DNA from: a bacterium
GTDB taxonomy: Bacteria > Electryoneota > AABM5-125-24 > Hatepunaeales > Hatepunaeaceae
Direction of reading: 5' to 3'
DNA: 41,705 nucleotides
Assembly: GCA_013202285.1 (NCBI GenBank)
Contig: JABMRV010000120.1
Coordinates: 1-41,705 of the forward strand
Under the pieces are notes generated by a model, which worked only from the letters and a program-made list of their open reading frames with translations, made no database searches and was not told the origin of the DNA. Below are positions 37,855 to 39,617 of this stretch, piece after piece; position 1 is the first letter of the stretch; each line of letters begins with the position of its first letter. The position numbers were made by a program, and so were the translations under genes.

Positions 37855-38676
37855 ATGTTCAAAGTATCACTTCAAGAACTCGAAGAGAAGGCTTATCGGA
37901 TCCGCAGGAATCTGATCGACCTGATGTATCAGAGCGGATCGGGGCATCTTGATACATCGCTGAGCCTGGTGGAAATATGGCTGGCGCTGGTCTATTCGGA
38001 GTTCTTTCGTCTCAATCCGCAGAACGGCGCATGGGACGGGAGAGATCGAGTGTTTCTCTCCGAGGGTCATGCCTGCCCGGTTCAGTACATGGTCAATGCA
38101 GACCTTGGATACTGCACTGTTGAGGATGTCTTCGCTGGTTTTCGCAAGCCGAATACACCTTATCAGGGACATACAAAACGTGATCTGAAATATGGACTTG
38201 AGAACTCGAACGGCAGCCTGGGTATAGGTTTATGGCAGGCATACGGTCAGGCACTGGTAATCGATAGATTCGTTTTCTGTATCGCAGGCGACGGCGAGTT
38301 TCAGGAACCGTCAAGCCAGTCACTTCTGTCGGTAACGCATAATCTCAAACCTGCCCCGAACTATATCCTGATATTGAATGATAATAAGCTGGCTCAGGAT
38401 TCACAGGTGGACATCGGTCCGATCGGCGAGGTTGCAGGATTGTACGGCTGGCAGGTTATCCGGGTCGATGGGCACGATTTCCACGGGTTGGGGGAGGCGT
38501 ACATTCAGGCAGTGAATGAAAAGAGGAAACCATCTCTCCTGATCTGTGATACCATAAAGGGAAAAGGCGGTGATCCGCAAAATGAAGCGCAGCTCGGTTT
38601 TCATGGACGTCCACCCAAGGATGAAGCTGAGTACAGGGCATATATCGATGGTCTTGAAGCGGCACGGGAGGCTTAA
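37855..38676 (+). CDS. Transketolase-like protein, N-terminal (TPP-binding) half
   Basis: The 273-residue protein matches the first domain of transketolases encoded as two genes. It has IRRNLIDLMYQSGSGHLDTSLSLVEIWLAL (H31), FLSEGHACPVQY (H72), the TPP/metal motif GDGE (145-148) with NDN (175-177), and KGKGGD near the end. It departs from the common GHPGGSLS and GDGELQEG patterns (here GHLDTSLS and GDGEFQEP), so the substrate may differ from that of standard transketolase. No SD is visible before the ATG, and a TATAAT overlaps the start codon. The next gene begins in the stop codon. Confidence 0.88.
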   Translation: MFKVSLQELEEKAYRIRRNLIDLMYQSGSGHLDTSLSLVEIWLALVYSEFFRLNPQNGAWDGRDRVFLSEGHACPVQYMVNADLGYCTVEDVFAGFRKPNTPYQGHTKRDLKYGLENSNGSLGIGLWQAYGQALVIDRFVFCIAGDGEFQEPSSQSLLSVTHNLKPAPNYILILNDNKLAQDSQVDIGPIGEVAGLYGWQVIRVDGHDFHGLGEAYIQAVNEKRKPSLLICDTIKGKGGDPQNEAQLGFHGRPPKDEAEYRAYIDGLEAAREA

Positions 38677-39617
38677 TCACGGAAACATACGGTAAAGAAT
38701 CACTGCGCGAGGCGTTCGGTCATGCGCTGGTCGATGCCGGAGAGAGATGGTCTGATCTGCACGTCCTCGATGCGGGTACGAAGAACTCGACCTATAGTCA
38801 ATCATTCCAAAAGGTCTATCCCGACCGATTTATCACGCCGGGTATAAATGAGCTTGGTATGATCGGACTGGCAACCGGTATCGCCATGGCAGGTAAGAGG
38901 GTAGTCGCCTGCGATATGTCGGTATTTCTGCACCATGCCTACGGTCAAATTCGCACTGCTGCACGGCAGGGAGACGATCTGCATCTGGTGATTGCAGCCA
39001 GTCACACGGGTATCGCCGTCGGTCCGGACGGGTCATCTGCACACGACATAACCGACCTGGCGAGAATGCGCCTCGTTCCGAACTTCAAGATAATAACTCC
39101 TTGGGATGGTCGGCATGTACGGCAGATAGTTAAAGTAATACTTGAAGAAAAAGGATACTACTATGTGCGGCTTAACAGACCCAATGTTCCGATATTCTTA
39201 AAGGAACCGATGAGCTTTGAAATCGGTCGCGCATACAGATTAAACGAAGGAGAGCGCGTTACGATTATCGCTTCCGGAGATAAGGTGTTTAACGCACTAC
39301 AGGCGGCTGAGGAGCTTGGTGAAGGCTTTGCTGATGTGATTGGCATTGCAACACTCGAACCGCTTGATTCGGATACGATACTGGCGTCAGCCTCTCGAAC
39401 GGGGCGGGTGATTACCTTTGAAGATCACATGTATGTAGGTGGATTGTACGAGTCGGTTGCCGGTCTGCTGGCGCAACATAAGCCGACTCCTATGCGACGG
39501 ATAGCCCTGAACCGTATATTCACAACCTCCGGTGAACCGGATGAACTGGCGAAGATGTTCGGTCTGACTACAGAAGCTCTTGTACGGTTTTGCCATGAGT
39601 TTGTCGAAGATCGCTGA
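38676..39617 (+). CDS. Transketolase-like protein, C-terminal half, apparently starting at ATC
   Basis: The frame holds the pyrimidine-binding and C-terminal domains of a split transketolase: KESLREAFGHALVDAGERWSDLHVLDAG, RFITPGINELGMIGLATGIAMAGK (E59 is the TPP-activating glutamate), ASHTGIAVGPDGSSAHDITDLARMRLVPNFKIITPWDG. Conserved sequence begins well before the first ATG (38859). The only position with a good SD (GGGAGG 38666-38671) is ATC at 38676, in TAATC, where a TAATG overlap would be usual. I assign a start there with 313 residues; ACG at 38679 is the alternative. A frameshift joining it to the N-half or a base error are other explanations. Confidence 0.75.
   Translation: MTETYGKESLREAFGHALVDAGERWSDLHVLDAGTKNSTYSQSFQKVYPDRFITPGINELGMIGLATGIAMAGKRVVACDMSVFLHHAYGQIRTAARQGDDLHLVIAASHTGIAVGPDGSSAHDITDLARMRLVPNFKIITPWDGRHVRQIVKVILEEKGYYYVRLNRPNVPIFLKEPMSFEIGRAYRLNEGERVTIIASGDKVFNALQAAEELGEGFADVIGIATLEPLDSDTILASASRTGRVITFEDHMYVGGLYESVAGLLAQHKPTPMRRIALNRIFTTSGEPDELAKMFGLTTEALVRFCHEFVEDR

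Follow-up and report, generated by a model that had tools for sequence, protein, structure and literature searches.

A probable ACG start codon at the C-chain gene of a split transketolase in the Hatepunaeaceae

As a working rule, natural bacterial start codons share with ATG either its last two bases (NTG) or its first two (ATN), and the ACG starts of eukaryotes are used by scanning ribosomes. A close described parallel to the locus reported here is infC with its AUU, AUC or AUA starts, which resembles it in combining a conserved non-canonical start with a G-rich Shine-Dalgarno sequence. However, infC starts keep AU, whereas the ACG considered here differs from AUG at the middle base, and infC encodes the initiation factor itself, whereas the present gene encodes an enzyme subunit. 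According to a study of Staphylococcus aureus (PMC13009471), conserved weak starts occur there together with strong Shine-Dalgarno sequences, with AUA in infC and ccpN and AUU in cvfC1, and in poor medium the ccpN (AUA) and cvfC1 (AUU) starts give approximately 10% of the expression obtained with AUG. The ccpN and cvfC1 genes are similar to our locus in pairing a weak start with a strong Shine-Dalgarno sequence outside infC; they differ in that their codons are of the AU type and were shown by ribosome profiling and reporters, whereas the present codon is an ACG, known from sequence alone and located two bases after a stop codon.

ACG itself has been placed at the start position in several settings. 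In a kinetic study of IF3 (PMC8266586), a model message is used in an ACG version beside AUG and AUU. Plastid and eukaryotic ACG starts have ACG at the start position, as in our locus, and in the cases that PMC9845219 describes, chloroplasts edit their ACG starts to AUG. In a limited literature search, whose coverage left most subscription papers outside, no naturally occurring ACG start turned up for any bacterium. The pairing of a conserved weak start with a strong Shine-Dalgarno sequence is already known, and what would be new here is the ACG codon, which would add an unexpected member to the short list of bacterial start codons. If such ACG starts are real and have been kept for long, the NTG/ATN rule is too narrow.

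The window analyzed here is a stretch of 41,705 nucleotides (contig JABMRV010000120.1 of assembly GCA_013202285.1) from a draft genome of 3.0 Mb in 261 contigs, which we call G000. Two other contigs of this genome (C17 and C18; L069 and L070) consist entirely of N. The comparison set comprised nine genomes of the window's family, Hatepunaeaceae, from nine genera (G000 to G008, with G000 being the window's own genome), all of them draft assemblies in many contigs. The relatives with named records are Calditrichaeota and related metagenome assemblies, namely AABM5.125.24, co234_bin30, Candidatus Hatepunaea meridiana and Tobar14m-G34. The features of the locus are collected in Table 1.

Table 1. 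Features of the split transketolase locus, in positions of the window.
Feature	Position	Strand	Evidence
N-half of split transketolase, TPP-binding domain, 273 aa, ATG to TAA	37855..38676	+	Pfam PF00456, 1e-31; orthologue in 9/9 family genomes
TGA in the C-half frame, closing the frame upstream	38655..38657	+	read directly
Shine-Dalgarno GGGAGG, within the end of the N-half	38666..38671	+	duplex -10.3 kcal/mol, gap 6 to ACG
TAA, N-half stop, two bases 5' of ACG	38674..38676	+	stop present here in 9/9 family genomes
ATC, start proposed earlier, judged not to be the start	38676..38678	+	ACT in G002; Shine-Dalgarno gap 3
ACG, likeliest C-half start codon	38679..38681	+	aligns with ATG in 6 relatives and ACG in 2
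C-half of split transketolase, pyrimidine-binding and C-terminal domains, 312 codons including ACG	38679..39617	+	Pfam PF02779, 1.8e-28; PF02780, 2.8e-24
First canonical start, ATG, 60 codons into the conserved C-half, right behind the GINELG segment	38859..38861	+	read directly

Judged by their domains and homology, the two neighboring frames encode the two chains, N and C, of a split transketolase. The C-half contains PF02779 and PF02780, both above the Pfam cut-off, without PF00456, a domain make-up that identifies it as the C chain of a split-gene transketolase, while PF00456 is found in the adjoining N chain partner, within 37855-38673. By their coordinates, the two halves adjoin each other in all nine family genomes. 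The nearest solved chain to the C-half is 6yaj, the C chain of the Carboxydothermus hydrogenoformans split transketolase (2.4e-58, residues 6-302). That enzyme (PDB 6yaj and 6yak), which was compared by chain sequence only, likewise has a separate C chain. In our locus, the N and C chains would be read from one shared message.

Read in the frame of the C-half, the codons that follow the upstream TGA are AGC GGC ACG GGA GGC TTA ATC ACG GAA ACA TAC GGT, and the conserved C-half protein starts at the second ACG of this series. ATG, GTG and TTG are absent from the frame between the TGA and position 38859, 67 codons downstream, which bears out the non-canonical start claimed in a preliminary description of this DNA. 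Taken alone, the seven start-free codons between TGA and ACG are nothing unusual; the unusual feature is a conserved, selected protein without a canonical start over its first 60 codons. Gene finders limited to ATG, GTG and TTG would lose these 60 residues of the C-half, cutting through the GINELG segment.

In the full protein alignment of the C-half, the start column holds ATG in six of the nine family genomes and ACG in the other three. The locus thereby shows what defines a conserved non-canonical start, the absence of ATG, GTG and TTG at the start of the gene, kept in relatives (ACG in 3/9, ATG in 6/9). The junction reads stop, two bases and ACG in G000, G002 and G003, and stop, two bases and ATG in G004, G006 and G008; it is TAATG in G005, TGATG in G007, and stop, one base and ATG in G001. 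ACG is the sole triplet common to the three ACG genomes at the start, the codon before it being ATC in G000 and G003 and ACT in G002. In G000 and G002, the stretch that runs from the upstream stop to ACG (in the latter, approximately 60 codons after TGA) contains no in-frame ATG, GTG or TTG. In G003, one in-frame TTG is located two codons 5' of ACG, only 2 bases behind the GGAGG Shine-Dalgarno sequence of that genome.

The ACG genomes represent three genera, and the window's C-half shares 76% identity with its counterpart in G002 and likewise with that in G003. Among the codons that can be compared between the ACG genomes, 60-68% have a different base at the fourfold site (0.60-0.68), and the dS of the C-half is 2.39 or out of range by NG86, a method for which many dS values fell outside the range and are given as beyond it. 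By these measures, the neutral (synonymous) sites between the ACG genomes are close to saturation. Within codons 2-61 of the C-half, 43, 49 and 44 of 60 residues are identical in the pairwise comparisons among G000, G002 and G003, a conservation about like that of the rest of the protein, with dN of 0.12-0.21 and dS of 2.35 or beyond the NG86 range. Codons 2-61 are, by these estimates, under purifying selection, and because of this selection we do not regard the ATG at 38859 as the true start of the C-half. Were the triplet an ordinary Thr codon, a chance agreement of the three genomes on ACG would be possible, if uncommon: ACG stands in all three genomes at 6 of the 99 Thr columns that they share (16 genes).

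The trees place G000, G002 and G003 around the ATG-bearing G006 and G008, not as one clade on either tree. Both trees, which were built with treekit after a first FastTree tree (27 of the 30 loci in the C-half tree, without L017, L031 and L032, which have full-length frames, and with L022 and L030 from outside the family), imply that the codon changed between ATG and ACG two or more times, and a single ACG clade is not rejected by either (p-AU 0.235 and 0.137). Either ACG is old and reverted once, or it arose several times, or the trees are slightly wrong. Across the phylum, a search with a pattern of the site matched 2 of 39 genomes (G002 and G003), a weak negative result given that the pattern misses G000 itself, where the spacing is one base shorter.

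All three ACG sites have the strong, well-spaced Shine-Dalgarno sequence expected of a non-canonical start. Computed against the canonical anti-Shine-Dalgarno sequence, which was assumed, the energies are -10.3 (G000), -9.5 (G003) and -10.0 (G002) kcal/mol, with gaps of 6, 7 and 7 bases, respectively; at the six ATG sites, the energies lie between -5.8 and -11.0 kcal/mol, with gaps of 6-10. For orientation, among 274 sampled G000 genes, each scored at the best of several possible starts, 12% have an energy of -9 or stronger, and none of an equal number of random internal G000 codons does. These values agree with a picture in which weak starts persist only beside a strong Shine-Dalgarno sequence, although three against six sites are too few for a test.

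Several other explanations of the junction have to be weighed against an ACG start. The preliminary description placed the start at ATC, one codon before ACG, on the basis of GGGAGG and of the overlap of ATC with the N-half stop as TAATC, both of which we confirmed by direct reading. Both the window and G003 have this codon, which is of the same ATN kind as the AUA given for S. aureus infC in PMC13009471. However, G002 has ACT at this position, the ATG of the relatives sits one codon further, and ATC would leave a Shine-Dalgarno gap of only 3-4 bases, versus 6-7 for ACG, all of which makes an ATC start unlikely. The proposal of a non-canonical start is thus upheld, but its codon was probably one off, since the ATG of the relatives aligns with ACG. 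An ordinary start in relatives, which had been named as evidence against the proposal, does exist in six of them, but at the position of ACG and not at that of ATC. A gene decaying after the loss of its start, with the C chain not made, or a start at the internal ATG, would agree with 38859 being the first canonical start; we consider both quite unlikely, as the frame contains no stops, orthologues exist in all nine genomes, and codons 2-61 are under purifying selection like the rest. We know of no bacterial system of C-to-U start-codon editing, and a conversion of ACG to AUG in the message before translation, as in plant plastids, ranks below gene decay in our assessment. In its favor, ATG and ACG differ by exactly this one change, and PMC9845219 describes chloroplast start codons that are edited from ACG to AUG.

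The preliminary description also offered a programmed -1 frameshift that fuses both halves, a proposal that finds some agreement in the C-half frame, which is -1 relative to that of the N-half and stays open over the seven codons 5' of ACG. We abandoned it in view of the N-half stop, which is kept in all nine family genomes, so that no fusion is needed, as well as the ordinary ATG in six of the nine and the different frame relation in G001. Moreover, the X XXY YYZ slippery heptamer that characterizes members of this class was not seen by eye in G000, G002 or G003, and we hold a frameshift to be less probable again than editing. Lowest of all, we place an assembly or sequencing error that hides a true T. 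The draft state of the assemblies, in many contigs, speaks for it, but the same C is found in three genera whose proteins are about 75% identical, and an error is very unlikely because of the nearly saturated synonymous sites, the purifying selection on the first 60 codons and the strong Shine-Dalgarno sequence before each ACG.

The absence of a canonical start, the homology with the ATG of the relatives, the occurrence in three genera, the strong and well-spaced Shine-Dalgarno sequence, the kept stop and the selected first 60 codons together argue that the C chain of the split transketolase quite probably starts at ACG, read by the initiator tRNA. Ribosomes terminating at the N-half TAA, two bases upstream, would supply 30S subunits; a subunit held by GGGAGG would have ACG placed in its P site, and ordinary fMet-tRNA would decode this codon despite the mismatch at the middle base. 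Coupling may help this process, its efficiency may be low or IF3-dependent, and it might serve a regulatory purpose. If this mechanism is true, stop-coupled reinitiation with a strong Shine-Dalgarno sequence offers a testable reason for tolerating a middle-base mismatch. Against an ACG start, a weak start is odd for an enzyme made of two chains, which are presumably required in equal amounts, and in the survey of all 64 codons in E. coli by Hecht in 2017, ACG was reportedly a poor start, poorer than ATC.

The initiator tRNA of G003 is normal, with a CAT anticodon, so that in this genome at least there is no need for a changed anticodon. A pattern search identified initiators with CAT in six of the nine family genomes, G003 included, and none in G000, G002 or G008; a looser pattern matched only G003 among four genomes, and a DNA search with the G003 initiator tRNA gene revealed no initiator in G002 or G008. 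In G000, two partial matches at contig ends (C246:1-28 and C145:1-19; L108 and L116) suggest that the initiator tRNA gene is cut by these ends, which hides the anticodon. ARAGORN was run on 12 further loci from the tRNA search, and those that could be named are Pro, Lys, Gly and Ala tRNAs.

The comparison with infC, already drawn in the preliminary description, proved apt. The IF3 gene is present in all nine family genomes, and in each of them no ATG, GTG or TTG is found between a G-rich stretch and the first conserved IF3 residues, save for GTG or TTG inside the protein; in G003 and G006, canonical triplets occur farther upstream, before the G-rich stretch. Behind the G-rich stretch, seven of the nine (G000, G001, G003, G004, G005, G006 and G008) have ATA, and G007 has ATC ATT. 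In this family, infC seems to begin at a non-canonical codon, which is ATA in most of the genomes. In G002 (match G002:C144:12743-12952), TAG is followed only by AGG AGC GAC ACG AAG, with AGGAG at the beginning; the next canonical triplet is a GTG at codon 13, and the Shine-Dalgarno spacing is ambiguous. The infC of this genome may hold a second start with a middle-base mismatch, ACG or AAG. Taken together, the bacteria of the window's family seem to use weak, presumably IF3-sensitive starts. A wider reading, which we put forward tentatively, is that ACG is the true and selected start of the C chain, reached by stop-coupled reinitiation with a normal initiator tRNA, with the output of this central carbon enzyme tied to the IF3 level in step with the ATA-started infC, and that the infC of G002 may have moved to a start with a middle-base mismatch (ACG or AAG).

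We also searched for non-canonical starts elsewhere. The 30 orthologous frame groups derived from the window contain 241 start triplets, comprising 200 ATG, 22 GTG, 9 TTG, 3 ACG and 7 others, where the start column is the one with most starts and is misplaced where N-termini vary. Five of the 30 groups were flagged. Four of these alignments were inspected, those of the C-half and of three groups in which the chosen column is no shared start; the fifth group (20454) has one AGA, with an ATG near by.

A scan of a heuristic gene set covered the frames with a visible 5' end, 285 in G000, 152 in G002 and 37 in G003, among which the first canonical start lies at least 15 codons in for 50, 41 and 8 frames, respectively. 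No further ACG start stood out when the flagged list was examined by eye and two frames were opened, in a scan that sees only genes without ATG, GTG or TTG in their first 15 codons and would miss many. In G002, a 458-codon frame on the minus strand (L147, C5 820-2193), which we take to resemble a magnesium transporter, lacks a canonical start over the first 71 codons as well as a clear Shine-Dalgarno sequence. In G000, infC also stood out, by conservation rather than by score, and the top three frames by coding score of the upstream part are L063, the transketolase C-half and L057, which has a 17-codon gap. L063 (G000:C11 13933-15960), for which read-through, decay or an error are candidate explanations, is a long frame with an N-terminus resembling a secretion signal, split by one in-frame TGA.
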